A DNA stretch of 64,000 bases, from contig NC_133234.1 in the NCBI RefSeq assembly GCF_040436345.1, positions 12,089,446 through 12,153,445 of the forward strand. Direction: 5' to 3'. This DNA comes from Pagrus major (lineage: Eukaryota > Chordata > Actinopteri > Spariformes > Sparidae). Below, piece after piece: positions 4,441 through 57,667 of this stretch. The notes under the pieces are model-generated. The model saw only the letters and a program-made list of their open reading frames with translations, was not told the origin of the DNA and searched no databases. Each line of letters starts with the position of its first letter. Position 1 is the first letter of the stretch. The translations under genes were made by a program, and so were the position numbers.

Positions 4441-7400
4441 CCGGTATGCCTATTGCTGGGGCGCTGCAACAGTCATGTTGTTTTGGGAACAGTGGTCTGA
4501 CTTAATTTGGCAGTCGCTGGCCATCGACCTATTCTGTCATTTGGTATGAGGATGTATTGTACATAAAATCAGCACAGCAGAAACGTCAGATAGGTTGGAC
4601 CACACCACATCTGATTAATTTATTTACCTTTACAAACCTTAGCATAAGAGTGGTCCTGAAATCCTTGTTTACCATGTTTCATAATGTATAGTCACCAACA
4701 CTCAGCTAGTATTTACTTTATTGTCTCTTAGTGCTAATGCTAATCTGTGAAAGCTTTGACATATTTATTAAAAGTAAAAGTTGATCATTGAGACAAGCGT
4801 TGGCTCTGCAGATTGTAATAATTTATCACTCTGTGAGGCATAACAGGACCTATTCTTAGCCACAGTTGCATAAGCTTTTGAAGCTTCATTATACAATAAC
4901 TAGTTGTTTGGATCAATGAAGTTTTTACTGTCAGACTGGCTACACTTTGTTAAATGGGATGACACAAGGGTGTGTGTGACAGCAACATAAGCACACTCAA
5001 ACTTTTGTTCGACATTTTACATTTTGGACCACTAAAAACTGAACAAATGTAATTTTCCACTTATGATGCCACTCAGCACAACTCAGTAGCTTTTACTGTT
5101 AATACATATAAACATCAGCTCTTTAAGAATATTGTCTTGTTATGTTGTTAAAGTGAGATGCATAGTTGTTTTTCAGTGAATAACATCTGCATTAAAAGGA
5201 ATGCATGCCTCTCATTTTGACTGCTGCTGGTTTTGAGTTAGAATTTAATTTTGAAGGCAGTGAGTCACTTTTTTTGACAGCTAAATATAGGTATAAAGGC
5301 AGTATAAAAATGTTTCCATACACACTGAAACCCTTTATATAGTTTTTACCCTGCCCGAAACTTGTATCCTAGCTTTTCACAAGAGTTTCATTACCTAATG
5401 TGCTATGCGGGGCAACACTGCGGGTGGCAGTTGGGTGTCTATGGTTCAGGATGTCCTCACCTTGACAGCACACTGAGAAAAGCTCCCGTCTGCCTTTTTC
5501 GCTGATGCCCTGGGGGTGAGGAAAGTAATCGGCTCAGGATCCAGTGTCCCTGCAGCCACCTATCCCTATGCTGACCCTGAACTCTGCTTCTGACCAACCC
5601 TGTGGTGATCAAACGCTATTGCCCCCCTTTAGAACTTGTGGAAGTACATTTACTCAAGTACTGTACTTACTTACTGAACATACTGGAGAATTGTCTTTTA
5701 AGGAGGTGTTCTACTTCTCTTCCACCATATATTAGATGGATGAACCACATTCATCTTACAGCTGCAAAAACTAGTTATATTACAGATTAATATTTTACAT
5801 AGAAAACATTATGGTAGCTTAAATGACAGTACATTAAGTCATTAGAGTGAGCTCAACTAGCTATAACATTGTAATGCTTCCTTACCAATATTGCATCAGT
5901 AGTAATAATCCAAATGGCAATATGTATAATATTATATAACATATAAGAAACAATATAAGAATTATAAGACAACCCACAGAAGATGTACATTATGCAAATA
6001 TATAGCATCAGTTCAGTATAAATGCAAATGTACAGTGTCAGTGCAATATACATTATTAGTGCAGATATGCATTGTCAAGTAACGACAATCTCTGCAAAAT
6101 GTATGCACATACTCTGCCCTTCTTCAACACCAGCAAATAGAAGTAATGAAAAACAGCTTTAGGCTTTTATTGTGTCACATTGAACATCTTTTACAAAATG
6201 CAGAGAAGAACAAAATCTGAATCCCATGTTTTTTATTTGTGGAAAAACTATTGTGCATTGAAATACCTACTGTGGGATGATTTAATAAGATTTTTTCAAT
6301 AACATTTGCTTTAGTGTGAGCAAATGTGAAACATGTTGCCAAGCACTGGCATAATCTCTTTGAGGTGTTAAAGCCAATTAAGTAGCAGGCAAGATTGTTC
6401 ACGATCAATTCATTTCCGGCTTTGAACCATTCAGGTGCTTTTAATTTAGCCACAGAAAGTGCTTGATGTCTATGGGGGAAATTAGGTTCATTGTTTTTAT
6501 GTAAGTCACAGTGAGCTCTAACACAATGTTACGACTAAATGAGGTAATGGACTGAGAGATGACCGCTCACCTGATGTTCCTGCAGTCCCTCCTCTTTCCC
6601 GTGTGACAAGCTTGGCAAGTTCATTATAACAGATGTTGACACTCGTGACACAAATTAAACCTCTCTGCTGAACAGATTATACCTTCAGGCACTCTCGGAC
6701 TCCCTCTCTCTGTTTCTATAGCTGATATTTTTAGAGCTAGATTCACACAGCAAAAAAAAAAAAAAGAACACCCAGTTCATTTATTTTCCGCGGGCACGAC
6801 CACCTGTATGTAGGACTGCTTGTCACTCATCCGATAAAAGACTAATGGAGGGTGTTTTCATTACGAATAAAGCCTTGTCCATCTTTAGAACAAAGAATAT
6901 GGATGAATGGACATACAGACAAGACATGCAGTCCTCATTAAACTGCTTTATATTCTTCAAAGTTGTTCAATCCCCTGCGTTTCTTGCAAATTAGCTCACT
7001 TTTATGGCAGAACGAGGACAGGGCAGCAGGCCAATCGTCAGAGCTACTGTATGTGTTACCTCGTTTCTGTGTTCCTTTAACCTTGATCACTAAACTGCAA
7101 TGTGATTAGGCAGTTTCTGTGGATTCCTCAGAGTTAGTGCCAAGGAGGGGACGAAACCAGGTGCAAACAGGACAAGAACCAGATCACATCTTGTCACGTA
7201 GTATAGAGACATGAGAACCAAGATGACAAGTTTATAGTACTCTCTTATATGTATATTTTTTCAGACATAACTACAGTCGCAGTAGTAGTAGACAAAAACA
7301 ATAGTTTTGTCTGAAAAAATACATTTTCCATTGTTTTTTCCTTTGTTTTTACTAACCCCTGGAAATAACATGATACCCTCTGGAGGCCAGTGACAATGGT

Positions 7401-36543: not shown

Positions 36544-36789
36544 GTAGCTTAACTTCTTGACCCTCAGTGTTAAAAAATCCCAGATTTTCTCCTACCAACA
36601 GCCACACAAATGTGGATCTTTTGATTGTGATCTCCACTCCATGCCGATTAACATTTTTCAAATTGTTTTCCACCTCAGGCCTGAGGGTATGTTGAGACGT
36701 CTCGCCAGGTCACAGCAGAGGCGTCTAGGCGGTTCGGACGGGGATTGAAGGTGCGGAGGAAAGCCAGACGAGGGACCAGGGAGAACGAC

Positions 36790-39700
36790 ATGGGCCAGTG
36801 TGTCACCAAGTGTAAGAATCCAACGTCCTCACTCGGCAGCAAGAGTGGAGACAAGGAGAGCGGCTCCAAGTCCCACCACAAGAAAGGAGGCAGTGCTGGT
36901 GGGGGCCACAAGGAAGAGCCCAGCGCCCCATGTAGCAAAGCCACCAGCGAGCTGTCGAATGGCACCAAGGCGTTGGAGGTTACAGTGGAGACACCGGTCA
37001 TCCCTGCAGTGATGGGGGAACCACGCAAGGACGAGTGTCTGGATGGAGATGGGCTGTCTATGCTGCGCATTGATGAGCTGTTCTGCTGCTACAAAGATGA
37101 ACACGAAGACGCCATCTTGGAGGAAGGCATGGAGAGGTTTTGTAATGACCTGTGTGTGGACCCAGCAGAGTTTCGTGTGCTTGTTCTTGCCTGGAAGTTT
37201 CAAGCAGCTACCATGTGCAAGTTTACAAGGTAAGGTGGAGTTTTGGGGAATGAGGTGTGTTGTTGTCTGGTATTTGTTGATCAGGATAAACGAGCATAAC
37301 TACTGCACAGTAGTATGAGTTGACGAAAGAGTATAGTGTCATTAGTGCCTCCCCTGATTTAATTACCCAGTAAGACCCTGTATCTACAAACACTCATGGA
37401 ACACAGACTACTTTAAGTCACTTGCATAAAACATTGCATATATTTTGGTATTACATTTGCCATTTCTCAATGGGGCCTGTTCCAACAAATTAGCTCTGGT
37501 TCTTGAAACATTCTGTCAGGATTCCTGGAACATGAGATTTATCTAGTGAACCAGCCCACATTCCCACCAGTTTTGAGTGGAACCATTGTAATCAAGGATG
37601 TGTCATTAACAGAGGACATTACACAATGTACAGCAGCCTGTCTAATATGACACACCCGGTTAGCATTTCAGGTCCAGGCAAACCTGCTATTTTTTTCACA
37701 AACCAGAAGAGAACTTGTGGAAAAGGGGTAAAAGTGTCCTGGTGGCCCATTCCTCTGTTGCATCTCCTACATGTCTCTTTTCTCATGTTTTCTGTTTTTC
37801 ACCTTCGCTGTCAGTCTATCCAATGAAGGTGAAAATCTTCCCCCAAAAAATCCCCTCCTCAAATCTTTAACATTATGTCATGTAAAAAGACCTGGAAACC
37901 TGCTCCATGACACTCATCCTTCTCTTCCCTGTAACATGCTGTCAACTATGTTGGCTGAAGTGAAAACATTACCCGGGATTCTCAAGTAAAACTGTGAGAT
38001 TGGGGTCAATCGAGGCATTTTTGATTATTGGTTACAGCCTGATCCATGTCAGACCCTTTTTGTTTATTGTAACACCATTCACTCAAAAACTCCTCAATGC
38101 ACTTCGTGTTTCACTTCGAGTGACATTTAACTGGAACGCCACGCCTCTTAAGTGTTGCCTTTGGCTGAGAGCTATGATTGAACTTGAGTATCTTGTTCAT
38201 GCATGGGATTAAGTGAGGCGGTCCAAAACTTCCTGCCACAAAGTGTGTTTGAATGCAAAGGTATCAGCCAGAAACACATTTCGAAAGTACATTGGCATTA
38301 TTCCTTTTATTATAGGCAGTGTACGGGCAACTCCCTGCATATTGTAAGGACGGACTGATGGCACATGACCGGCACTATGTACAGTTGCAAGTCAGTCATT
38401 TTTAAATTGGCCACATCTAAGGAGAAAGTATATTGTAGCTGTAATTAATGGCACTTGCAGTTAACTGACAAATCACCTTTTTTATCAAATAATATTTTGT
38501 CTTGTTTTGGTTATTGATCATATGTTTCAGACAGTTAATCCCAAAATACTGCTTACTAAATATCATCCACCACTAATAACTAGCTTGATGTCTTTATAAC
38601 TAAACCTCTAGCCACAGAAGCAACTTCCTGCCTGTTTAACCTTCTAGTCTGTGGTCCATCGCTCCCACCTCAAACACCCAGCTGCTCAACTAAACACACA
38701 CAAACACACATTCACACGCACCCGTTTCCCACTGTCAGGTAGGGGGCACACAGGAAATGGATCCTGCTGTGCACTCCCACTCTGCAGTCAGTGTCGGAGA
38801 TGAATAGGGCTGCCCGCTGGCCGGGTCGCTTGTCGCTGCTCCCCCTCTCTGATTTTTAACTCAGCACTTTTCTATCCACAGGCTTTGGACAACACCGCAC
38901 TCTGGTTACCAACATGTTTCATTGTCACCTGATGCTTACTGAAGCTGTTTATATTACATTTGACTTTGAAAGCCTATTATGTTGTATATCTGCCCGGGTT
39001 GAGGCCCAAAGTGCTGAAGTGAAATGATGTTTGTCAATGTCTCATTGAATGAATGAACAGTTTTAAGTACACTTTTTAAATGTATTCCCTAAATGGTAAT
39101 TGTGGTATTTTTAAACCCAGCCAGTTACATGTTTTGGTATGTAAATCGTGCATACTTTACAAAAGTTTGGGAATCTGCCCAGTAGATCAACTGGCAGCAC
39201 CGACACAGCTGCAATGGCTGCATTGGGGCAACTCTGACCATCAAAGTTAGGTCCACTGAAACTTCTTGTTGTTAGGTTGTTATTCTATATGTCTGACAAC
39301 ATTACAGAAACAATTCCTACGGAGATCGACCGTTTTGTTAAAGAGGAAGATCCTTCTTATAACCAGAAACACAAGTCTCACTCTGAAATCTTGCGAGAAG
39401 TGAGTTTTTCCAGGAAGATGACTTGGGGAGAGGGGTTTGGAGTTTACCTAGAGGAACTGCCGGCAAGAATAAATTTCAAAGTCAAGTCACGGCTGACTTA
39501 TTGACAGATTTTGACAATCTAGATGGGGATCTTACAAGTAAACCAAAAGGTCCATCTCTGGAGGATTCTTTTCTATAATGTTGTCAGACACGCAATAACA
39601 ACCTCAGGTTTTAGTGGATGTAACTGTGATGGTCGGAGTTGCCCCTAAGAAATACATTAGCAGCCATTGCAGCTGTGTCGTGGCTGCCAGTTGAGAAGAT

Positions 39701-40514
39701 CTACTTGACCGATTCCGAAACTTTTAAGTACGAATCATTTATACATCCAAAAATGTAAATATATGGCCCAGGGGTTTAAAAATACCACAATTCCCCTTTT
39801 AAACTGCAAAAAGCGATTTGTAATTTGTATCTATTAGCTATTAATTAGCTGTGGTGCTGTTAATTTTGCTTTGTTGAAGAGTATACTCGTGAAATTTAGG
39901 CCCTCACTATCCTTACCGAATTAGTTGAGTTTTATTCTGATGTCCGGTTCTGTTTACTTTGTGTCACCAGGAAGGAGTTTGTTGAGGGCTGCAAGGCCAT
40001 CCAGGCAGACAGCCTCGAGGGTATCTGCTCACGTTTCCCCTGCATGCTGGTGGACGCCCAGGGAGAGGAGAACTTCAAGGACTTGTACCGCTTCACCTTC
40101 CAGTTTGGCCTGGACGCTGAGGAGGGCCAGCGCTCGTTGCAGCGCGAAATCGCCATCGCCCTATGGCGCCTGGTTTTCACCCAGGACATGCCTGCGATCT
40201 TGGAGCACTGGCTGGACTTCCTGGGGGAGAACCCCTCAGGTATTCGGGGCATCTCAAGGGACACGTGGAACATGTTCCTCAACTTCACCCAGGCTATCGG
40301 GCCTGACCTGAGCAACTACAGCGAGGACGAGGCGTGGCCCAGCCTCTTCGACACCTTTGTGGAGTGGGAGCTGGAGCGCAGGAAAAAAGAGGAGGAACAG
40401 GCACTGATGACAAAGGAGGAAGAGGGGAGGTGTACTGAGACAGAGTGTTCTCCCAGCACAGACAGACTTGAAACAGAGGGAAGCCGCGGCTCACAGACGT
40501 GGGGGGGCCACTGA
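36790..40514 (+). CDS. dcun1d3: DCN1-like protein 3 (DCUN1D3), 2 coding exons, 327 aa
   Basis: Exon 1 is 36790-37229 (ATG at 36790) and exon 2 is 39971-40514 (TGA at 40512-40514). The Arg codon at the junction is split AG|G (440+544 nt). The protein starts MGQCVTKCKNP, the N-myristoylation signal that anchors DCUN1D3 to membranes. A low-complexity Ser/Gly/Lys segment runs to about residue 90, followed by the DCUN1 (potentiating neddylation) domain at about 92-285, with ILEEGMERFCNDL, KDLYRFTFQFGLD, GISRDTWNMFLNFTQ and DLSNYSEDEAWPSLFDTF. The last two carry the acidic-Ala-acidic cullin-binding patch known from Dcn1. DCN1-like proteins bind cullins and the NEDD8 E2 and regulate cullin-RING ligase neddylation; DCUN1D3 is reported to hold cullins at the membrane. 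Human DCUN1D3 is 304 aa; this copy has a longer acidic C-tail (EEEQALMTKEEEG to WGGH). The single coding intron carries a long-TIR element. Confidence 0.97.
39094..39800. mobile_element. Long-TIR foldback / MITE element in the dcun1d3 intron
   Basis: The two arms are inverted copies. Left: AATTGTGGTATTTTTAAACC, AACTGGCAGCACCGACACAG, CTGCAATGGCTGC, GGGGCAACTCTGACCATCA. Right (reverse complement): AATTGTGGTATTTTTAAACC, AACTGGCAGCCACGACACAG, CTGCAATGGCTGC, GGGGCAACTCCGACCATCAC. Each arm is about 200 nt, and inner segments (GTTGTTATT, GTCTGACAACAT) extend the pairing. The central ~250 nt is unique with a short open frame (39277-39504) lacking recognisable domains. It is non-autonomous; the exact target duplication is unclear. 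Confidence 0.75.
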
Positions 40515-42951: not shown

Positions 42952-45900
42952 ATGGATAACGAGGTAAGCAAATATCGCCTTATTCAACGACCCATCTGCT
43001 CTGTCAGTACTTCTAACTTCACCATAATCTGTCATCTTTCTATACATGAGGCATTGTCAGGACGATCTCTGATTTTCTGGGCATTGATCGCAACATTGCA
43101 TGCCATATTTTACATCAGCGCCTCGGCTGTCTCTTTGTTTCACTAACAAGTACTCTCTGTTCTTTTCTCCAAATGTATTTCCTTCTCTTCTGACACTGAC
43201 AGATGCTGTAGCCTAGTTGACTTGTAGAAACTGAGTAAGGGCTTTGTGATTTCTTTGCTCGTCTTGCATGATCGTTCAAACAAAATTGTGTGGCATGAGG
43301 CTGTAAATGGCTGTGTTATGTGAACAGCTGATGCTCCTTCCAAGACACACTTAATGTAGCACTGGCTGAGAATCAAGGCCAATATTTAAAGACTGAAGCA
43401 GGCACATTTTAATGAGGATGAATGGACTTTCATATGGAGAGGATTGTAGACCCTGCTGTTCGATCCTCAATTTGAGATTTAGGTTGATCTGACAGATGTA
43501 TTTTTGCAATAAAATATCTTGTCAATTTGGCTTTTGAACAAACGATCACTTGTTATCACCCTCCAGTTACATGACGTGTTAAGTGATCATCATAGATTTG
43601 TGACATGTATTGTTAATGCAAGATGTATTATGCAGGGACACATTATGGTGAGATGTAATGGCTCTTGTTTCAGTCACTTTGTTGTGCTCACACCTAATGA
43701 ATACAGGGCAGGACCACCTTTTGAAGAAGAGCCTGAATCTGACAAGGCATGGTTTTATAAAAGTGCTGGAGTTATTCCACAGGGATCTCGGCCCATGCTG
43801 ACTCAGTAATCTGACTCAGTTGATGCATATATTTCAGCCGTGATTTCGCTATTCTGCTACTCCATCTCAAAATTGAAAGTCTACAGGCATTTAGGGTTAA
43901 CTAGATATTGTCATGATCCTGAAAACCTGATGAGACAAATGCTGTATGATTATAAACTGTTCACAGATGGATGCTAATGCACTCCCAACAATTTAACATT
44001 AGCAACGATGTGAAAGGGATGATAATTTCTTATTATGGCCTGAATGTGTTCCCATCACACCTTTTAACCTCAGGATGACACTGACTGAATGTTGTCTTCA
44101 CATTGCATGTGCTGTATTGATGCTTTGTTTACTCAACACCAGAGGAGCAAGCTGTTTGCATACATTTTGTGATGTACAGAATAAAGTGGATATTGATTGT
44201 CACCCGTGAATGTGAATACCCGTGCAACAATGAGCTGTATTGTGACAGTCTGTTTTTCTTAAACAGCTGATGTATGCTTTTCTGACTCTGCATCGTGTGT
44301 GTTCGTGTGTGTGTGTGTGTGTGTCCGTGTGTATACTCATGCTCGTGTTCTTGAAGGAGAGTAAGACGTGCCAAGGAGAGAAGCTTGCCTCTGCTGTGGA
44401 TGACACTCTGGATGAATATTTAATCGCCCTCCAGCACAAAAACAGGTGAAGTGTGAGCACAGGCTGCTGGGGGAGAGACAGATTGGATTTCACAGAGGAG
44501 GTGCACAACTCCTCCATGACTTTCAGTGCTGCCTAATAGGAGCACTGATTGGTTCCTTGCTTTGAGATGCACAGGATTAGTTTGTGAAATGTGGGAAAGC
44601 GGGAAGCTGCTGTGACAGACAGCTTGCCCTATGTTTATTCATAATTGTCAAGGTTGTCACCGGTTTTCTTTGCTCCTCAGGATCCTAAAGCGCCTTAAAG
44701 TCAAAGACCCCAGGGAGATTGAGTTGGAGCAGCTTGAGCAAGGTTTCTCCATTTATCTCAACGGAGCCAATGCTGAAGCCAGTAGGAAGCAGCCAAAGAG
44801 CTCCAACCACAAGTCTGTCACCTCCTCACCTGCTTGGAGGCCCGCACGTACAGCAGGTATGCAGCTGCTGGACCAAAATAAACCTACAGACACTCCCCCT
44901 TAAATAAGATCTCATCATTTTTTAAACACCTGTTTTGTGCAAGAGGAAATATTCAGTCATTTTTACACTGAAATTGAAGGCGGCATCTCATATTCTATTC
45001 TTGTTGCTCCTGTCATTCCCTGAACCATATGGAACACCAGCTAATAGCCACCACTCCTCAGCTTGTAGTTTGCGTGGCATGATCCCACGCCCAGTCTCAG
45101 TGAATAAACGATAGTGACAGTTGTAGCTGGCAGCCAGTTTTTTCCCTCTTCCTCTATGCGCTGGACCATCTGCGTAAGTGACTGTACGTTCCGTCTCCTC
45201 TGAGGCAGTAGTCTGCTGCAAGCTGCTCATGTTCCCGTCTGTGCTCTTACTCATCTGCAGATGTCTGTAGAAGCGCCCACCAGCTAACTGAAGATAGCCC
45301 TAATCTGGAGCAGGCTCACAGGAAGAGGAGCCACACTGCCCCAGGAAAGGTCCAGAGGAAAGAATGGGTGCAGGTAGAGGCTGCTAATTGGTTAATATTC
45401 AAATCTTTAATTGTGGTGCATCAAAAATAAATATTTTCCAATGAAAGTGCACATGTTTATATGTTCCTCTCTTTTCATGTTTACAGGATTCTGTCAGAAT
45501 TCGAACAGAGGAAGGACTAAGTTTGCTGATCTGCCCAGAAAAGCGCTACTCTGAGGATTTTGAGCCCTATGAAAGCGTAGACATGGAGGTAGAGTGAAGA
45601 CATGACAATGCCTACTAAGCCTGTGTGTGTGGGTGTTTTTTTCCAGGGGAGGGGCTATGTGTCAGATGCAGCTGTCTGTGCTACTTAGCATCTCTCCATC
45701 TCTGCCATTTCCCCTTCACCCAATCACCTTGTTGCATCCAGAGCTCCAGCCCGCGCTCGCCTCGAAGTCCCTGCTCCCAGAGGGACACCTCCAAGGTGTC
45801 GCGCTCCTTCAGCTCCAGGCCTGAGAGCCAAGGGGGCCAAGCAAATCAGGAGCACAGTGAGAAGGTTCTTCTCAACCTTGAGGAAGTGAAGGTGAGCGGA

Positions 45901-48900
45901 AGAAGAAATATGTACGCCGTTTCATTTCATCTTGTCATGGTGGCATGAGATGTTGTGAATCGTCGAAATTTGATTTATGCTCCTGGGTGTAAATTTATGA
46001 CGGTTTTCAGTGTTTGTCACCTAAATCAAGGGGATACTTAAACTGTCAGCATGCATTTTTGCGCCTGTGAGTGCTTACACTGATGACTGTGTTTACGGAT
46101 GCATACGTAAACGCTGACATTTGTAAACTAGGTCCTGCGTCGGAGCCTGGAGGTTAGCATGCGGCGGAGCAGCCGTGGTTCAGCGGGGGAGGAGTCGGAT
46201 GAGGAGTGGGTGGAGGAGCAGATTGAGAGGGACGAGAGTACTGAGAGTCTGGACGAACTGGGGCTGCCTCTCTCTTCCTCCAAGTCCTCCTCCAACCCCC
46301 GGCCAAGCGGAACGCACAGCCATCTGGACTCAGCAAACCTCATTGTCCTGGACTTTGGACCCTCACTGAAAGGTATGCTTTAGTGTCCACTTTCATATGT
46401 AAATTTAGTATTGATTTTTAGGGTGAGTCTTAATTGTCCAGAGTGATTCCATCTCCCTCATCCCTAACCCTGCTTCATCAGCAATGACCTATACAGATGG
46501 AGAGTAGGCGAGTACATTAGCAGTCTTTGCACAGTTCAAGTGGTATACTAGCCAGCCTCTGGGATGCAGAAGGACATTGGTCCTTTTGTGCCAACAAACT
46601 CCCAATATCACATTATATTCTTGTAATCTGAAAATTTTCCTCACCTTTATCTATTATTCCAGGTCGTAAGATTGAACGCTCACTGTCTGCAAAAAGGAAA
46701 GAATCCATTGACACCTTTATACCTACCAAGCCTATGTTGGTGAAGAGCAAAACATTAGATAGACCACCTTCCAAAGAGAGCTGGGATGGGCAGAGTAAGT
46801 CTTATAATGTTTTTTTAAAATTGCTAAACTGAGATTTATGATAAACAATCTATGAAATTTAAAGTATGCAGTATACAAGTGGCAGCTTCGCTATTTTGAT
46901 AGAAACCTCTTAATACAGGCCCTTTTTAGAAATGTTTCTGTTGAAAGATCTGTTGGAAAGCATGGTGCATGCCTGTTGTTTTAAAGACCTGTGCTTCTTG
47001 CTTTAGGGCCGAGGAGTCGAGTGGAGAGGCCCCTGTCAGCAGCCAGAAAGGCTTCTCTTGAGGAGCGGGACACAGAGGAGATGGCATGCAGGGTGCGCCA
47101 GGCCATCCAGAGAGAAAATGACCCTGTGCAGAGTCCTGAGATCTTCAGCCGTAACACGGTCAGCCTGCCCCACACTGTGCATGTCCCACCTCTCCTCAAC
47201 TTAAACCACCACTTCTTAAAAACATCCTGTTAACTAGCACTGTAATAAATAGTTTTAAGCTTTGAAGCTTTAATCAGAAGGTGGACATTCAGATTCTAAT
47301 CAACATTGTTTGTTTTCTGTTTGAACCCAGGATTTCAGCACAGTTGCAGATAGAGATTAGGCAACACTAATATTATTAGTATTACACTATTGAGTGAATG
47401 AGATTCCAGTGGTGGCTGTGTGTGGCTTGTTTCCCTCTCGTGTGATCCAAACATTCCCTGTAACTCCACCTCTAGCTTTTGTCAGATGATGTCATCATAA
47501 AATATGACAACAGACATTCAACGCTTCAGTCAAAAACCTCTATAGAAGCTCAAATGTTAAATAAAATGACAGTAGTACCAGTTTTCTCCACCTATGACAC
47601 TACACGTGTCCTTTATGTGCTCGTGATTTTAATACAGTAACAGTGTGCTGGATTTGGCTTACATGTAAACTCTGCCCCTAAAGCTTATGTCTCTCTGACT
47701 CTTTAATTTTGCTTCCTTTTTATCCAGGGCAGGGGACACCAGATGATGAATGGCTTAGTGCGCCACAACAGCCGCGACAAGGATGAGAACAGTGTCACTT
47801 TGGCTATGCAGAGAATCACCCTCATGGGCCCCGGGTATGCTGACTGAATATGGCTCTTAAACACACACCTGGTAATCCTGTACATCCTGCAGTGTCAGTG
47901 TAAACTTGATATTGTTTTATAGACACTAATACTAACAAAGATTTATGGTGTATACACCCTCTGACCTTGAGGAATTATTTATTAGTGTTGCTGTGCTCAG
48001 CAATCACTCCCTGCTAATAGGATGAAGGTCAGGGACACTAGACAAATCAGCAGAGCTGAGGGTGTCATCCTTCTGTTCAGGCAACAACAGAAACTGCTGA
48101 AAGCCTTGGAGAAACTGGAAGCAGGACCCAGCTACGACATCACTCAGTCTGTCAAAACAGACCATGGCAAGCAGCCGGTGAGTCAGTAACACGTCTAGTG
48201 GTTCAGATGGTGTGATTGAGACAGAAGCACACCGAAGCACTCGTGAATGTTTTGTGTTGTCGTTGCAGAGAAGGCACTCCTCAGCAGAGGTCACCCCTGC
48301 ATTGTATGTTACCATGGAGATCCTGTCAAACTGGGGGAACGCGTTGCAGGTCGGGCTGACTGAGTTGCAGTTTTTCTGCCTTAGAAACAAGAGACTATAC
48401 GTGTCGCCTCACGACTTAGACATCAGGAACGCAGACTACCCCGGGAATCTGGGGGCACTTGTCAGCGGAAAGGTGAAGGTGAGTCAATGCGGCCTGTCTC
48501 AGCATTCTGTTTGAATGATTTCAGCAACGCATATCTGAACGTAGACATCATAAATTAGTAACAGTGCGTGTATAACCTGCATTTTTATTGAAACCTGTTC
48601 TCACAGCAAACATTTTAACCTGTCTCAACGGCCGATCACACCAAGACTCATCAGTAAAAACATGTCATCCAGCAAAACTATTGTTGCCCAACGCCCCTTT
48701 CCAAGGTGTTTTTAAAAGCGGCCACGCCTGCAGTGACAAGCCTGGGTGTCATTAGGGCCTTGGCAGGAAAAGTTCTGGTGTAAATAAAGACGTTAATTAT
48801 AAATCTCTTCTATTTAATTGTCCCGGTAAGCCATGACGTTAAACAAGCGTGCTCAATAACAGGATCATGAAGCTTGAACACCTAAATAGGATGCAGCTAT

Positions 48901-49188
48901 TATTAATGTTATTAATCCCAATCGTCTGTTGTGTAAAAGGCCTGTTATTTTACATACAAGTTTAAGGTGGTTCTCAGCATTTCTGAATCAATCTCACTAT
49001 TTCCATGGACAAAGTATTTGCTGATTTCATCTGTTATCTTTGGTTGACAGACCACCAAAGAGCGTCACATGTGGACGTGCCCGTTCCACCCTCCCGTCCA
49101 GCTCTACTTCATCATCAGGAACACGGAGCGCTCCTCGGATTTTGGAATATCTCGCATCAAAATCTGGAACTACAACAGAAGCCTCAAT
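42952..49188 (+). other. katnip: katnip exon map, part 1 (coding exons 1-13)
   Basis: Exons: 42952-42963, 44357-44445, 44681-44856, 45261-45373, 45487-45588, 45742-45891, 46132-46372, 46663-46794, 47007-47158, 47728-47834, 48081-48177, 48269-48478, 49051-49188. Each acceptor ends in AG and each donor begins with GT, and codon phases match across every junction. Exon 9 uses a weaker donor (ACG|GTCAGC). Exon 11 could instead start at 48021, adding 20 residues in frame. The first intron (1.4 kb) carries the GT microsatellite at 44.29 kb. Other introns are mostly short; the 47.16-47.73 kb one holds nothing recognisable. Confidence 0.9.
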
Positions 49189-52100
49189 GTAATTTTTTTT
49201 TTATTATTATGTGCCATCACAGTTAATAAGAAGTTGAATTGTAAGATCACATATTTTGATTTATTCCTCTCTCCAGTTCAGAGATTATTTATTTAGCCGT
49301 CCGTAGCACTACAGTAGAGTTCATAGATCCAACATGCTTGTGTGTTGTCAGTGTAATACGGGAGGACTGTATTGGAGTGATTATGTCGGGGGTGTGGCTC
49401 TCTTTTAGCAGTGGCTGGCTGAGCTGCCAGTCAGACTGTCCAAATGTGGAACAGCAAGAGATTAGCCCCGGAGGATTAGTGTTAGGGGAAACGTGGGCTT
49501 CTGCCTCTCCACCTCACTGCTGCTCATTGAGGGGGTACAAGACCCCGTTGTATCTCTTTTTATGTTACTACACTTATCTAGAATCACTTGATGTCTTGAG
49601 CCTGGAAGGTAAGGAGCTGTTGGTGGGAGAAATGTTCTGGTTTAATCTCGGTATATAGTGGTTTACTGTGTGGCCGATCGAGCAGATTTGAGTTGGGCTT
49701 TAGCCATTTCTACATGGCAGCCATGTCTTGGCGTCTGTGAGAGCGCTAATTACTGCTAGCTTGGAGAGCACTTATTGTGCATGAAAGAAATAGATGAATC
49801 ACCAAAGTTTTTACTTTTTTAGACTTTATGTATTTGCCGCTTGTGTTGCTTTGAATTTGAATAATTATGCACTCAAAATATTGTTCAGTATTCAAAAACA
49901 TAATATGAAATGCTTAATATTTTCCTGTGTTACTATTTAATACCACGTGACGCCTTATATCTCAAATTAAATGTGTAGAATTATTTTGTGTAGATGTCAG
50001 ATATTAAAATCTCAAATTAACTGGGTGCCGAAAGTCAAATAACGTGCAAACTGTATGGATGCAACTAACGATTATTTTCATTCATCGATTTATGAGACAA
50101 TTATTTTCTAACTTAATTATTTTGTCTATAAAACATTGAAAAAGTGTGAAAAAGTGACGTCTTCAAATTGTTTTTTTTTTGTCTGAAACCAAAACTCTTC
50201 ATTTACTGTCATAAATAATGACGAAAAGCAGCCAATCCTCACATTTAAGAAGCTGGAACCAGCAAATTTTTGATATTTTTAAAATAATTGAAACAGTTAA
50301 TCTATTATCAAAATAGTTGACAACTTATTTTCTCCCGATCGACCAACCAGTTCATCGACTAATCGTTGTAGCTCTAGCAAACTGTTGAACATGGTTGTAT
50401 ATTGATTTAAACAGGAACTCTGTTTGTTTTTGTAGGACCTTGACATCGGTGCACGCCATATAAAGCTGTACCTTAACAGCACATTGGTGTTTGAGGGTGA
50501 GCTGGCGAAGGGCTGTGGCAACCAGGTCTTTGACTACAGCACCACGATCGACCTCCAAGATTTCCAGGTGTCAGACTCTGTGTTCTCCAGTCCCGTGTCA
50601 TCAGGACACAATTTGCGGGGTGCCAGCCCCCAGCGCCATGAGGACAGGAAGAGTGTGGAGCGACACCACAGTTCGAATCAGCAGCCATTAGATGCAGCAG
50701 GCCAGGCCATGATGGAAATGCAGGAGAAATCCCATACACTGCTCCCACCCATCACTCCTTCATCCTCTGCTCGTCGCTCCTCCACACAAAGAAACTCTTT
50801 TGATCTGTCAGCCTCTGAAGAGCCTCTCTCTCTCAGACAGCAGGTGGAGCAGCCGGCGCCCATGGAACAGACAGTCACCACCCAGCCGTCCTCCTCACGG
50901 GTGGCCCCCCAGTGGCTGCAGCCCCTCAACAGAGGAGCTCCAGAGGGCTGCGAGGCCAGCAGAGAGAGGCCCCGCTGGCTGGTGCCTCAGCACTCCACAG
51001 AGCCCAAATCTCCGACAGCCTCCTCCTCCTCAATGCTCCCGGAGCTGCCGTGCAACCCGGGCCGAGTTTGTAGGGGGGTGGAGAGGACGGTGAATGGGAG
51101 TCAATGGAAAGCAAACTCTCTGGATATGAGCTGCGACCTGCTGGAGGAGCTTGGTGAGCCAAAGACAGACAGGCCCGTCAGCGGACGCAGGAGCTCGTTC
51201 AGAAACACTGCAGTCACCAGCAGGCAGACAGAGGAGCAGCACCTCAGAGCTGCTGTGCTGTCAAATACAGGTAGGAAAGATTACTACCTCCCATCTTTAA
51301 AGTTATGATACCACCATTCATTTATCCTTTATTTGTGCAGGAAGACCTTATAATTTATGATAACTTATTTGAGATTCTTTGATTTAAAAAAAGATGTGTG
51401 TCCTATCTGTGATGCCATTAAAATGTTTGTTTCCTAACAGAATGTAAGCTTAAATTGATTCCTGTATGTTTTCCTTTTGTTGCTGATTAAGTTTTGTCAT
51501 CATCAAAAGTATACCCTTTGATATTTGATGGGAATCGTCATTTCTACAGATGTTTTTGTGAACTTAAATACGATTGTGGAAAGGGGGAGATGTCACTGCA
51601 TAAAGCTGACCGCCTCTTCTATTATAATCCCTCAATCTCCCCGACTACAGATGAATAAACAACATGATTTAAGAGGCTGTACTTTGAAATGTAAATCCCA
51701 GGGATACTGTGGAAGGGAATTTTTTGTTGAAATGGGTCAATTGATGAAATGTATAACTAGACTAGTTTTTTTTCTTGTGTGATGCTAAATGTAAAGGCAG
51801 TTTACACTCATAAAAGTATTATCTTTTTTCCTGTGAATTGCTAGTATTAATAGATAATCTTTGTGTATTCTCCAGAGGAGCCATTGTCACTGGTGAGCAG
51901 CAGCAGGAGGCAGTGCACCTCTCTGTCCAAGCTGCACAGCCAACAGGACGACACCCTCATGGAGTCCTGGGACTCCCTCACAAAGTTCAACCAATGCCAA
52001 CGTGGACGAATCTCCAACATGGGCTTCGAAGGCGACATTTTTGATGAGTTCCTCCAGCGGCAGGGCCGCGGTCCACCCACAGTCCCAGTCAACTCCACCA

Positions 52101-55100
52101 CAGCACCCAGGAGCCCACTTTCTTCCTTGAGCACGCAGGGAGGGGCACTGTGTGAAGGCCCTGATGATGATCCATCCATGGAGCGGGAGGAGGAGTTTGA
52201 GATCCCGGTGCTGCCCCAGGGCCAAAGACTGGTCATCAACATCCTGTCCACCTGGGGAGACCGCCACTATGTGGGCCTCAACGGCCTGGAGGTGTTCAGC
52301 TCCAGCGGAGAGCCCCTACAACCTGCTCATATCCGTGCTGACCCCCCAGACATCAACATTCTCCCTGCATACGGCAAGGATCCACGCGTGGTCACCAACT
52401 TGATTGATGGCGCCAATCGTACCCAGGATGACATGCATCTTTGGTTAGCACCCTTTACCCCTGGTCGTAGCCACACCATCTTCCTGGAGTTCGGAGCCCC
52501 CTACCAGGTGGCCATGATCCGAGTGTGGAACTACAACAAGTCGCGCATTCACTCCTTCCGAGGGGTGAAGGAGGTGGAGATGCTGCTGGATGGGAGGTGC
52601 ATCTTCAGGGGCGAGATTGCCAAAGCCTCTGGGACCCTGTCTGGAGGTAGCTGAACAGAACAACCTCACAAATTTTGACTCCTTTGTGTGTTACCTTTGA
52701 TACATTTTATTCCTTTTTTCTCAATCTGCTGTCACTTCAGGGCTGGACCAATTTGGTGATACTATCCTGTTCACTACTGACGATGAGATCCTGGAGGCTA
52801 TGTCTCGTTACGATGAAACCTTCCTGGGTGAAGGTGAGGGTCCTGAGGGCCTGGTTCACGAGGAGGAGCTGCAGAGACCGCGCACCGCTGATGGAGAGGG
52901 AGAGGAAAGACCCTTCACCCAGGCCGGTTTCCGAGAGGAAGACCTCAAAGTAATTACATTCACTGGCTACCTTTATTTTTTAGAATTGATTTTAAAGTCC
53001 TTTTACTTACCTACAAAGCCTTACGCAATCTAGCACCTTCATATATCAGCAACTGTCTCTTATTTTATGTTCCATCAAGAACTCTCAGATCTTCCTCTGC
53101 CTTTCTGACTAAAGTTTATCCATTCATGTCTATAAAAAAACTTGTTCTTTAAATAGTTTTGTTATTCTGGGGATCAAAAATCTTCATCTGAAGTTTGAAT
53201 CTGAGGTTTTTCTGTAAATAGGTTTTTAATAAATAATGAATATAGCAACGCCTGATCAACCCAGATCATTTTCAGGCTTAAATTAAAACTACTTCAGCTT
53301 CAAAGTATGGATATGGACACGTATAATAGTGTCCTCGTTCATCCCTAGTTATTTGCACGTCATCAACAGGACAGGGTAAAGCAATTATAGTTTTAATGTG
53401 TTCATGTGTTGTTCTAGCTGAAACTCCATCTCAACCCCACTGTGAGCCAGTCTGAAGAGAACATGGAGCTCATTCCTGGGATGTACACTGGAAAGTGTGA
53501 GTAGACCATCAGCATCCTCTCCTCGCATGTTCAGTTCTATTTTTTGCTGTTTAGATACTTAAAATAAGTGACTCCTTCCACTCCGACAGGCCTTAGACTA
53601 GAGCTGGTGATGACGTGGGGGGACTCCCACTACATGGGCCTGACAGGAATGGAGGTGGTGGGGAAGGATGGAGAGAGTTTGCCTTTAGACCTCAGTATGA
53701 TGGCTGCCTCCCCCAGAGACCTCAACGACCTGCCTGAGTACGGACACGACCTGCGCACGCTCGATAAGTATGTCGGACAGCATATGTGACATTTGACAGT
53801 CTTTTTTTTCACCACACAACAGTTGATGTAAAATAACCTTACTTTTTGTGAATATTCCATCTCCTTTGTATGGGTTTCCTTACTGTGCTTGATTTCTTAC
53901 TTCCAGTACCCTGGTCACAAGAAAAATATCGAATATCACAATCCATACTTAGAACAGATCATTATTTCGTTTGGTGCAGTCATTGGGGTCTGTTGTCTTT
54001 ACCCAGACTTATAGATTGCAACAACATCACCACTGATGACCAGCACATGTGGCTGATCCCTTTCTCCTATGGAGAGCCGCACACCTTGAATGTGACGTTC
54101 AACAAGGCCCAGACCATCGCTGGACTCCGTATCTGGAATTACAACAAGTCCCCTGAGGACTCTTATAGAGGGGTGAGACACTTTTCTGTCACTTCAGTCC
54201 TGTGAAATAATCATTGTGAACCGTTTATATAAAGCAGTAAGCTTTGAAACAATTAGGTATGATACATTTTTACATTTAACAGTACAGGTCTATCAACAAA
54301 AACACACAAATCTCTACATCTTCGTTCCAGGTGAAGCTGATCCATGTGTTCGTGGACGATGTTGCCATCTCCCCATCGGAGGGATTTCTGATCAGGAAAG
54401 GACCAGGCAACTGTCACTTCGACTTTGCCCAGGAGCTCCTCTTCATAGACTTCCTCCAGACGCCCACTGAAAACAAGAGTGCAGAGGACTACCACAAGTA
54501 GGAGCCAGAAATTTAATTAGCACAAGCTGTTATCTCACGAGAAAGTTTGAAAACCGCATTTCCTCATTTTTGATGTTGTCTGTAATTCAGAGGAAGCTCG
54601 AAGAGACAAGAACAGGCCAGCATGGACTATGAAGCTCCCATCATGCCTTGTGGATGTATCCTTCTGACATGGACGTGTGGACAGTTGTGTTTACTACTGC
54701 TGTGTGTGTTGTCAGTTCAAACAGGCAATGTTAAGGCTGCAGCAATTCTTTAATGTTTTATCAATCTGCCAATTCCCGTTTTTAATGAAAAATGCACAAC
54801 ACAATTACACAGAGCCCAATTTTTACATCTTCATATTGTTTCTCTGACCAGGATAGATTTGATTTTTTAATATTTTAAATCATTTTTGATTTTATATTCT
54901 GCCAAATGTTGATTGGGACGGTCAGCATGAACACACATCCTGTGTGCCATCATGAATTCATGTCAAATTAAGGATCTGTTCTGGTGTTTTTAAAGATAAG
55001 GGCTGTTAGAAATCACTCCATCATTCCCTACTCCCTGTTTGATAATCACTACAATGAGCACAGTAAATTTAGATTTCTAAAGCAGAAGGTAGATGAAGTG

Positions 55101-57667
55101 TACTCTATTGTAAATAGGGAGTGACTTTAGCCACAGCCCAGGTCTGATGTGCGCCGTACATGTTGTTTATTCCTTGACCTTCATCCGTCAGTCATTTTTC
55201 AGCTGCAGCTGTTAACAACCTGGGGAGACCCGTACTACATCGGCCTCAACGGCCTCGAATTTTATGACCAGAACCACGAGAAGATCACTCTCAGCGACAA
55301 CAGTATCCTTCCTTCACTAACCTAAACTCAAGCTAGAATATATCCATATAATCTTATCACTCTTGTGCAGTTCATAATTTATGTATACATTCTGATTATT
55401 CCCCCTTTTGTCTCTTATCCTGGGATATGAATATTGAAACCTTCTCTAATACCATGAGGTATTTGTAGAAATAGGCTTAGTCATTGCCAACAAAAATGTT
55501 TAAAGAGGAGATGCATTAAAAGTCAAACAACCTTGAAAAGTCCTCACTGCTACACAATTGGTCCTATTTTTAGATCATATCCAGAGAGGATGCACATAGT
55601 AAATAATTGACCCAGGTGCTAAATTAGCAAAAGCTGTTGGAGGATTATTTGTAGGTGTCAATTAGCGTCTGTTCCTCAACATTATGTCCATCAGACATTG
55701 CTGCATTTCCAGACAGTGTTAATGTCCTGGACAGTGTGAGTGGTGATGTGAGGACTCCGGATAAATTAATAGATGGAGTCAGCAGCACCCATGATGGAAG
55801 GCATATGTGGTTAGCCCCGGTGCTCCCTGGACTGGTGAGGATGAGAGAGAGTGAAATTCAGTCAACACTCTGAAGAGAGTACATTTGTTTAAGTGTACTG
55901 ATTGTTTCCCCGTAGGTGAACCGCGTGTACGTCATCTTTGATCAGCCAGTGACTGTTTCCATGATCAAACTGTGGAACTACTCAAAGACACCACACAGAG
56001 GAGTGAAGGAGTTTGGGGTAAGCATCTCTATCTGCTGTGAGCTGTTGTAGTTTTGCACACTCAAACTCTAATGTATTTGTCTGTGTGTGTGTGTTCAGCT
56101 GCTGGTGGACGACCTCCTGGTGTATAACGGCATCTTGGACAGTGTAAGCCATGTGGCACGAGGCATTCTGCCCACCTGCGACCCAGTGGTGCCCTACCAC
56201 ACCATCTTGTTCACAGACAACGCCTACATCGCACACCGAGAGAGGAACACCGTCATCAGGTAACTGGATTTTTAGGATGTAGACTTTAGACAATTCAGAG
56301 TCTAAAACAGAGAAACTAATGGATTGAGAAGGTTAGATTCAACCGCAATGTCCCAAAATTGGTGAGTTGTTTTGAACAGAGATGTGCTCTTCTCCACTTC
56401 AGCCCCCGTGGCAGAAGACACCACCAACAGTGAGTAACAGAGCCCCTGAAAGCCTCGTGTCAGCACCCCCCTGTGGTCAATCCCTGTATTGAAGATTCCT
56501 CCAGTGACCTCAAATGTCCCCCAGCCATCCCACACCCTCCGTACCACATGCTTGACTTGTGATGCCTCCTCTCTCCCCCTTCTCTCTCCTTCGTTACCTC
56601 TCCAGACCCATCTTTGGTCTCAAGGCCTGGACCTGCTGGCTTCAAGCTTTGTTATCAGTCAGCCCTCCATTTTATGTCGTTCCTTGATCACAGTTTTCCC
56701 TCAAACGCAATGAATTCACTTGTTTTTGTTGTGTTTTCATTCATTTTTTTTGCAGTAATTACGTCGAGGATCAGGATGTGAAGATGACCAATGAGAATCA
56801 GATAGTGCATCACAACAAGAAGAAGCAGACAGCTGATCCAGGTGAGTCAGGGAAACAACCAGAGGGAATCAAACATGATCACAAATTTAAATCAGAAATG
56901 TATTTTCTTCACTGGGGGAGTCTGGAATCTCTTCAAGGTTCATCTTTATCTGTACCTACAGACACCCAGAGTCTACTAACATAGGTATGCCAAGTGTGAA
57001 GGACAGTGGGTAACCTCATCAATGCATAAGTAAAATGTTCTTATGAGAGGGAATCTAACATGATCACAGATTTCTTCCACACACCTGGACATTTGTGGCT
57101 TTTTTAACACACAACAGTTTGAAACTGTCATTCATCAGTCAGTTGGTGGGGTCTTTTCAGGGCAAAGACCCATTCTCCATCCAAGTTTTGTACAAATCCA
57201 TTCAGTAGTTTTTGTGTAATCCTGCGGACAAACCAACCAACAAACAAACATAACCTCTTTGGCGAAGGTGATGAAATATGGAGTATATGGGGTGCAAGGA
57301 ACAATTATTTTAATTTTAGATTAATTTGCAGTTTTTTGGTTTAAAAAAATGTCAGAAAAAGGTGAAAAACATTCATCAGTGTTTCCCAAAAGCCCAAGAT
57401 GGCGTCCTCAAATGTCAAAACATTCACATTTAAGAAGCTGGAATTACTTTTTTTTCTCTTTTAAAATGACTCAAAACCCTTTAATTGATTATTAGAATAT
57501 TTGGGGATTAATTTAATAGTTGATACCTAATCGATGATTCATTGCAGCTCAGATTAAGTCCAGTTTTAATGCACTAATTTTTACCTTAATTGTTCCGCCT
57601 AATTGCAGCTCTTCGGCCTAAAACCTGCATGACTGATGGAGGGAAGCACGGAAAGAGGAGGTACTGA
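42952..57667 (+). CDS. katnip: Katanin-interacting protein KATNIP (KIAA0556), 27 coding exons, 1615 aa
   Basis: Coding exons from ATG 42952 to TGA 57665-57667 join in a single frame (4848 nt, 1615 aa); mammalian KATNIP is about 1,618 aa. KATNIP binds microtubules and katanin and acts at the ciliary base. Human loss causes Joubert syndrome 26, and it partners the kinase CILK1. The N-terminal half is charged and low in complexity (Ser/Arg-rich exon 6, acidic exon 7). The C-terminal two thirds hold four related KATNIP/DUF4457 units with cores [15 protein letters not shown] (about residue 470), [15 protein letters not shown] (about 978), [15 protein letters not shown] (about 1212) and [15 protein letters not shown] (about 1405). 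Each is followed by an MW.xP segment and a WNYN/WNYS strand ([38 protein letters not shown]). The first coding exon is only four codons (MDNE). Two introns are U12-type. Downstream lies cox6b1 in convergent orientation. Confidence 0.96.
44293..44334. repeat. (GT)n microsatellite in katnip intron 1
   Basis: An interrupted GT run ending about 23 nt upstream of the exon 2 acceptor; length variation could influence that acceptor. Confidence 0.85.
50057..50378 (+). repeat. AACGATTA-type MITE, copy 3 (full length) in katnip intron 13
   Basis: It starts GCAACTAACGATTATTTTCA and ends ACTAATCGTTGTAGCTCTA, so the ends form imperfect terminal inverted repeats (AACGATTA). Internally it has GACGTCTTCAAATTG and CACATTTAAGAAGCTGGAA. 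It ends about 60 nt before the exon 14 acceptor and carries no coding capacity. Confidence 0.75.
52988..53130 (+). repeat. LINE (non-LTR) reverse transcriptase relic in katnip intron 16
   Basis: The plus-strand frame from 52988 reads [20 protein letters not shown], then [18 protein letters not shown]. This is the conserved segment near the C-terminus of fish LINE ORF2 proteins ([21 protein letters not shown] ... PSRxLRSS). It is a 5'-truncated fragment in sense with katnip, 39 nt after the exon 16 donor. Confidence 0.75.
54656..55191 (+). other. katnip: U12-type (minor spliceosome) intron 21 of katnip
   Basis: The donor reads GGAT|GTATCCTT, a perfect U12 GTATCCTT. The branch site TTCCTTGAC at 55170-55178 differs from the U12 consensus TTCCTTAAC by one base and lies about 14 nt before the acceptor CCGTCAG. 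There is no long pyrimidine tract. Splicing gives CCT TGT GGA T|TC ATT TTT (PCGFIFQ), the sequence conserved in KATNIP. Confidence 0.9.
55303..55694 (+). other. katnip: U12-type (minor spliceosome) intron 22 of katnip
   Basis: The donor AACA|GTATCCTTCC carries GTATCCTT. The branch site TTCCTCAAC at 55672-55680 is one step from consensus and about 15 nt before the acceptor TCCATCAG. The codon is split A|AC. Together with intron 21 it flanks the 111-nt exon 22, so both junctions of that exon depend on the minor spliceosome. Confidence 0.9.
57110..57280 (-). repeat. CAGGATTACACAAAAACT family, copy B in katnip intron 26
   Basis: On the minus strand: GTCCGCAGGATTACACAAAA, then ACTACTGAATGGATTTGTAC, AAAACTTGGATGGAGAATG. 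It matches copy A at 18.1 kb. The right side carries the CAAACAAACATAACCTC and TTGGCGAAGGT end typical of the family. Confidence 0.65.
57300..57552 (+). repeat. AACGATTA-type MITE, copy 4 in katnip intron 26
   Basis: The body GTCAGAAAAAGGTGAAAAAC, AAGATGGCGTCCTCAAATGT, CACATTTAAGAAGCTGGAA and TTGCAGCTC at the end match the family. It lies 55 nt before the last exon of katnip. Confidence 0.75.

Follow-up and report, generated by a model that had tools for sequence, protein, structure and literature searches.

Two neighbouring introns flanking one exon of katnip in Pagrus major are very probably of the minor, U12-type class

The 64-kb stretch of Pagrus major DNA analysed here (the window) carries a katnip gene, whose coding model was built by joining exons in frame from the sequence alone:

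42952..57667, + strand: katnip coding model, 28 coding exons, 1624 amino acids, a single open frame

The coding sequence is 4875 nt long with its sole stop at the end, and all 27 introns of the model have GT-AG ends; the first exon (MDNE, four codons) is a guess. Searches of the whole 64-kb window against Rfam at the gathering threshold returned 0 families. Upstream of katnip on the same strand lies a neighbouring gene at 36685-40514, which looks dcun1d3-like. It has a Pfam Cullin_binding match at 39900-40511, and its open reading frame (ORF) at 36685-37233 encodes an MGQCVTKC-type N-terminus and has no Pfam match.

The katnip model contains four mutually alignable DUF4457 repeat units, in keeping with KATNIP/KIAA0556, for which three or four such repeats have been published (PMC4699358). 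Five of the seven katnip ORFs tested against Pfam matched DUF4457, with the matches falling in units 2, 3 and 4, and nothing was found for the unit 1 ORF or the exon 25 ORF. A search of a viral contig collection with repeat unit 2 as query returned zero relatives. The fourth unit opens with an exon that is flanked by the two introns considered in this study:

54591..54655, + strand: exon 21, 65 nt, ending CCT TGT GGA T, phase 1
54656..55191, + strand: intron 21, U12-type GT-AG (very probable), 536 nt, phase 1, U12 minus U2 donor score +7.9
54656..54663, + strand: putative U12-type 5′ splice site of intron 21, GTATCCTT, exon positions -2,-1 = AT
55170..55178, + strand: putative U12-type branch site of intron 21, TTCCTTGAC, 0 mismatches, branch A at 55177
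55192..55302, + strand: exon 22, 111 nt, 37 codons, phase 1-1, start of DUF4457 unit 4
55303..55694, + strand: intron 22, U12-type GT-AG (very probable), 392 nt, phase 1, U12 minus U2 donor score +8.2
55303..55310, + strand: putative U12-type 5′ splice site of intron 22, GTATCCTT, exon positions -2,-1 = CA
55672..55680, + strand: putative U12-type branch site of intron 22, TTCCTCAAC, 1 mismatch to TTCCTTRAC, branch A at 55679
55695..55834, + strand: exon 23, 140 nt, carrying on unit 4; the ORF containing it scores 62.4 bits (Pfam)

A first-pass annotation of this DNA had described two consecutive U12-type introns here, at 54648..55700. The location is right and the exact limits are a few bases off, since the two introns and the exon between them occupy 54656-55694; the numbering of the introns as 21 and 22 is the same in the model built here.

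The exon ends can be placed by evidence that is independent of any U12 motif. When aligned to DUF4457, the spliced unit 4 matches with residues 1-144 on profile positions 179-322 at 258.5 bits (Pfam). With exon 22 left out the score falls to 166.2 bits, and the ORF containing exon 22 reaches 57.2 bits for the same family. As 144 residues lie on 144 profile positions, both junctions fall at the places expected by the family profile. The unit alignment and the Pfam matches also bear out the earlier description of exon 22 as the start of the fourth DUF4457 unit.

The signals at these exon ends resemble those of minor-class introns. Both introns have the donor consensus RTATCCTT exactly, as had been claimed, and they have the extended donor sequence GTATCCTTC in common. 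The branch consensus TTCCTTRAC (core UCCUURAY) is exact in intron 21 and has one mismatch in intron 22, at a position that pairs with the U12 snRNA. From the branch A to the last intron base there are 14 nt in intron 21 and 15 nt in intron 22, within the 13-16 nt before the acceptor given in the first-pass annotation. Counted as the bases between the branch A and the AG, the distances are 12 and 13, which may be set beside a published optimum of 11-13 nt from branch to 3′ splice site, given with its counting convention unspecified (PMC3584512).

To place these signals on a scale, all 27 katnip introns were scored with U12 and U2 matrices. The U12 donor and branch matrices were made from the 12 U12-type rows in Table 1 of PMC7367187; with five of its 12 rows drawn from a single gene, this small set is partly redundant, and the U12 scores serve as a yardstick and not as calibrated odds. 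The U2 donor matrix used in the comparison was made from katnip's own donors, minus the donor being scored and minus those of introns 21 and 22. The U12-over-U2 donor score is positive in only two of the 27 introns, namely 21 (+7.9) and 22 (+8.2), and ranges from -2.9 to -27.9 in the remaining 25. The same two introns lead in the U12 branch score, with 12.1 for intron 21 and 8.3 for intron 22 against a top value of 6.7 among the other 25, all of which have at least two branch mismatches.

Among those 25, the highest U12 donor score (4.6) belongs to intron 7 (46373-46662), whose donor reads AAG followed by GTATGCTTT. Its branch motif has two mismatches, AG precedes the donor and its U12-over-U2 score is -4.2, so that it resembles the misclassified introns described in PMC10853781.

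For the strength of the two introns as U2 introns, every site was withheld from the matrix that scored it. This matters for the ranges: sites kept in their own training give donors of 4.4-12.0 and acceptors of 4.8-14.7, and the left-out ranges are used throughout. The U2 donor scores of introns 21 and 22 are 2.6 and 2.3, compared with 1.6-11.6 for the other 25, and the donors of introns 13 and 18 (2.6 and 1.6, at or below 2.6) are as weak as that of intron 21. The U2 acceptor scores are 2.0 for intron 21 and -3.1 for intron 22, compared with -0.5 to 12.4 for the other 25; the acceptors of introns 5 and 6 (0.7 and -0.5) lie under that of intron 21, and none of the 25 lies under that of intron 22. 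Only the sum of donor and acceptor ranks both introns lowest of the 27, with -0.8 for intron 22 and, narrowly, 4.6 for intron 21 (next 5.5). By these sums intron 22 is clearly poor as a U2 intron and intron 21 marginally so, and weak U2 signals were therefore dropped as proof of the U12 class. The U12 call rests on the donor and branch evidence, and the slight U2 weakness of intron 21 leaves both intact.

Three further properties were considered. None of the validated GT-AG U12 introns in a published set has AG at exon positions -2,-1 (PMC10853781), and introns 21 and 22, with AT and CA there, pass this filter; it discriminates little within katnip, where AG is present in 12 and absent in 13 of the 25 other introns. 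A distinct polypyrimidine tract is not expected in a U12-type intron; pyrimidines make up 0.76 of the 17 nt upstream of the acceptor in intron 21 and 0.65 in intron 22, values that fall within the 0.53-0.88 of the other 25 and are thus no lower than in the rest of the gene. Both introns are in phase 1, in agreement with published work in which minor introns tend to avoid phase 0 (PMC10639083; PMC7367187).

How often such signals arise by chance depends on where they are counted. In the whole 64 kb, RTATCCTT occurs six times with 4.1 expected, TTCCTYRAC three times with 2.3 expected, and the branch plus AG pattern twice with 1.5 expected. Motif counts on their own were accordingly rejected as evidence, as these totals are about what shuffled sequence gives, and what counts is only whether a motif sits at an exon end that the reading frame dictates. 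Judged by position, ATCCTT directly follows just two of the 3812 GTs on the + strand, and these are the donors of introns 21 and 22; its probability is 1.1e-4 under the base frequencies of katnip's other 25 donors. When introns were shuffled, 110 of 42000 had a branch motif with at most one mismatch 11-16 nt from the end, versus two of the 27 real ones, again introns 21 and 22. The possibility that both are ordinary U2 introns with U12-like ends by chance has in its favour the 64-kb totals, each of them near expectation, and the sites of intron 21, which as U2 sites are no weaker than the weakest real ones. It would, however, have to place the U12 motifs exactly on frame-fixed exon ends with the branch at the right distance, at a per-intron chance near 1.1e-4 (donor) and 2.6e-3 (branch), twice over, and we consider it extremely improbable.

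Some U12-like GT-AG pairs do arise by chance: on the + strand as a whole, 11 of 345276 GT-AG pairs lying 60-1500 nt apart have at most one mismatch at each end, and four of these 11 use the donors of introns 21 and 22. Another U12-like pair on the + strand, GTATCCTAG with TTCCTTACC at 5364-5899, lies outside the gene models built and is probably due to chance.

A narrower alternative concerns intron 22. Here only intron 21 would be minor-class, and intron 22 would be a U2 intron, or one served by both machineries, whose donor merely looks U12-like and whose branch motif arose by chance. The one mismatch in its branch site leaves room for this, as do the dual-class sites and misclassified introns that have been documented (PMC10853781). 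On the other side stand the perfect GTATCCTT donor preceded by CA, a branch score (8.3) that tops those of all 25 other introns, and a U2 acceptor score (-3.1, self left out) under the whole range of the others (-0.5 to 12.4). This alternative is therefore improbable too, if less so than chance at both introns. We conclude that katnip introns 21 and 22 are very probably both GT-AG introns of the U12 type, which would be removed by the minor spliceosome, and that a correct katnip message probably needs this machinery twice in succession.

Apart from their arrangement there is little to set these introns apart. They share with known U12-type GT-AG introns the donor, the branch, the spacing of 12-13 nt that separates the branch A from the AG, phase 1 and the lack of an exonic AG before the donor, and differ only in that two of them stand side by side. 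In humans, 770 minor introns have been counted in 714 genes, with two in 50 genes and three in 3 (PMC6717393), and in zebrafish 662 in 612 genes (PMC9501576). U12 introns clustered within genes in all 21 of the 21 genomes tested (PMC7367187). If two introns are placed at random among 27, they end up side by side 7.4% of the time, rising to 17-25% for genes of 8-12 introns, so that several neighbouring pairs would be expected among the approximately 50 two-intron genes. The first-pass annotation had called adjacent pairs rarer still than single U12 introns. The pair is indeed uncommon, but given the clustering of U12 introns in genes and the 7.4% adjacency by chance that wording was too strong, and the katnip pair is not extraordinary.

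Known genes with two U12 introns (approximately 50 in humans, for example those of voltage-gated sodium and calcium channels) resemble katnip in that all their other introns are major (PMC2831892; PMC3584512; PMC6717393). In katnip the pair flanks a single exon, and the cited text of these sources does not give how frequently this is so among the known two-U12-intron genes. In a barley gene with two, unlike in katnip, they are introns 3 and 5 and hence not neighbours (PMC3558349). A search for adjacent or flanking minor introns with a limited set of phrases in a limited library found no neighbouring pair reported in the passages it covered.

The origin of the pair can be approached through the repeat units. 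An earlier intron lies at a comparable place:

53497..53589, + strand: intron 17, U2-type, phase 1, start of unit 3

In the unit alignment its position and that of intron 21 differ by a single codon. Introns 17 and 21 might therefore be copies that arose with the duplication of a repeat unit, intron 17 having later been converted from U12 to U2, a type of conversion that has been documented (PMC7367187); this would be compatible with introns 21 and 22 both being minor-class today. Both introns are in phase 1 and have T at exon position -1, which is found at three of the 27 donors. The offset of one codon argues against common descent, however, as do units 1 and 2, which have no intron at the corresponding place, and we regard this history as possible but unlikely. 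A copying of intron 21 from intron 22, or vice versa, was also considered and rejected: blastn finds only the first 9 bases in common, and no recent duplication is therefore visible.

If introns 21 and 22 are both minor-class, the recognition of exon 22 would be unusual. The U11/U12 di-snRNP recognises donor and branch site jointly, and exon definition in minor-intron genes normally bridges minor and major sites (PMC3584512; PMC8034651). In katnip, the di-snRNP is predicted to bind GTATCCTT together with TTCCTTGAC in intron 21 or TTCCTCAAC in intron 22, with ZRSR2 at the 3′ end of each. Since minor sites would lie on both borders of exon 22, we infer that it may be defined across itself by minor factors only, by U12 and ZRSR2 upstream and U11 downstream, and that U1 and U2AF would be dispensable at its borders.

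Weak minor splicing would then have two likely outcomes. One is that either or both introns are retained, leading to an early stop and the loss of unit 4: with intron 21 retained, 32 further codons (counting the split one) are read before a TAA at 54751, and with intron 22 retained, 7 codons before a TAA at 55323. In zrsr2 mutant zebrafish the U12 introns that were retained were shorter (median 451 versus 1398 bp; PMC9501576), and at 536 and 392 nt the two katnip introns would be expected to be sensitive. Exon 22 could also be skipped, if the donor of intron 21 were spliced to the acceptor of intron 22; this would be class-compatible, keeps the frame and removes 37 codons, the opening of the fourth repeat. 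The other likely outcome is the use of U2-like acceptors within exon 22:

55201..55208, + strand: two U2-like cryptic acceptors in exon 22, AG ending at 55202 and 55208, scores 7.0 and 7.9

Their scores lie within the range of the 25 real U2 acceptors (-0.5 to 12.4, self left out), and their use would cut 11 or 17 nt from the exon and shift the frame. As for donors, a scan of 54560-55450 for U2-like sites scoring at least 4 found six, all within intron 21 (54921-55142), and none in exon 21, in exon 22 or over the initial 148 nt of intron 22; the closest one downstream of exon 21 is at 54921. The first-pass annotation called exon 22 wholly dependent on the minor spliceosome, which is fair to infer from this lack of U2-like donors around the exon, but the statement needs softening in view of the two acceptors inside the exon and of MAPK12, in which a U2 donor is joined to the 3′ site of a U12 intron (PMC8329584), so that intron class is no absolute barrier. 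Failed minor splicing usually results in the use of cryptic U2 sites and in retention (PMC8329584).

KATNBL1 is bound by KATNIP baits that contain domains 3/4 or 2/3/4, and shifting the first 30-40 residues of the repeats to their end improves the match to IFT25, which has been described as an IFT25-like jelly-roll with a permutation (PMC4699358). Exon 22 with its 37 codons appears to coincide in size and place with this permuted segment. Structure prediction for unit 2 gave a mean pLDDT of 46.6 from the single sequence and 56.0 with eight rows from the window; Foldseek with the 56.0-pLDDT model yielded nothing down to the E 0.001 threshold. A PDB sequence search with unit 2 and with the unit profiles, plain and permuted, gave nothing below E 0.14, and IFT25 was absent among its matches. 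None of these models and searches enters the interpretation.

A comparison with the human gene is possible just downstream. In a patient with compound heterozygous KIAA0556/KATNIP variants, exon 25 (102 bp), which belongs to the same C-terminal region, is skipped in frame (PMC7066839), and the window's katnip has a coding exon of the same length:

55916..56017, + strand: exon 24, 102 nt, ending at coding base 4542

The corresponding human end is c.4551 (PMC7066839). With equal lengths of 102 nt and nearly equal coding ends, the exon layout just downstream of the pair looks conserved, and this hints that human KATNIP may have the same two introns. Exon 24 is flanked by U2-type introns here, whereas skipping of exon 22 would be a minor-class event.

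That ciliary genes can carry minor introns has been reported before, and the intron class itself has been thoroughly characterised; katnip adds an uncommon arrangement. The ciliary minor-intron genes named in minor-spliceosome disease models include IFT88, IFT74, IFT80, RABL2B, ARL16, TMEM107, TCTN1 and TCTN2 (PMC13216214). Like these, katnip is a cilium gene with (very probably) minor introns and would be expected to be sensitive to impairment of the minor spliceosome; KATNIP/KIAA0556 is not named in the main text of that paper. As the link between cilia and the minor spliceosome is in print for other genes, katnip would be one more effector and not the first. Among the matches listed in a text search of the literature, no paper names KATNIP or KIAA0556 as a minor-intron gene, while U12DB, MIDB, IAOD and supplementary tables lie outside that search and may well list the introns. 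Matches that combine KIAA0556 with U12 were set aside as unrelated, judging by title and the start of the abstract (sequencing studies of hydrocephalus and ataxia).

A dependence of katnip on the minor spliceosome, and through it a link to disease, seems reasonable. RNPC3 mutation causes isolated growth hormone deficiency with pituitary hypoplasia, reported in three sisters, for which the authors proposed SPCS2, SPCS3 and ARPC5L (PMC3958305). KIAA0556 mutation leads to Joubert syndrome; of three affected siblings, two showed pituitary involvement, which in one of them took the form of pituitary hypoplasia with a lack of growth hormone (PMC4699358). Taken together, an exon 22 defined by minor factors on both sides might make katnip a doubly sensitive ciliary and pituitary effector and help to explain this overlap between RNPC3 and KIAA0556; we offer this joint reading as speculative and rather doubtful.

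If it were true, a partial deficit in RNPC3, ZRSR2 or U4atac would affect two successive introns of the same transcript and lower KATNIP, and the pituitary hypoplasia and growth hormone deficiency shared by RNPC3 and KIAA0556 deficiency would be partly explained. If human KATNIP retains the pair, the overlap would be testable in patient RNA-seq. Where minor introns flank an exon on either side, the major partner also drops out, which raises the question of whether minor factors alone can define exons. To the ciliary genes that are hit in minor spliceosomopathies, katnip is a candidate addition.
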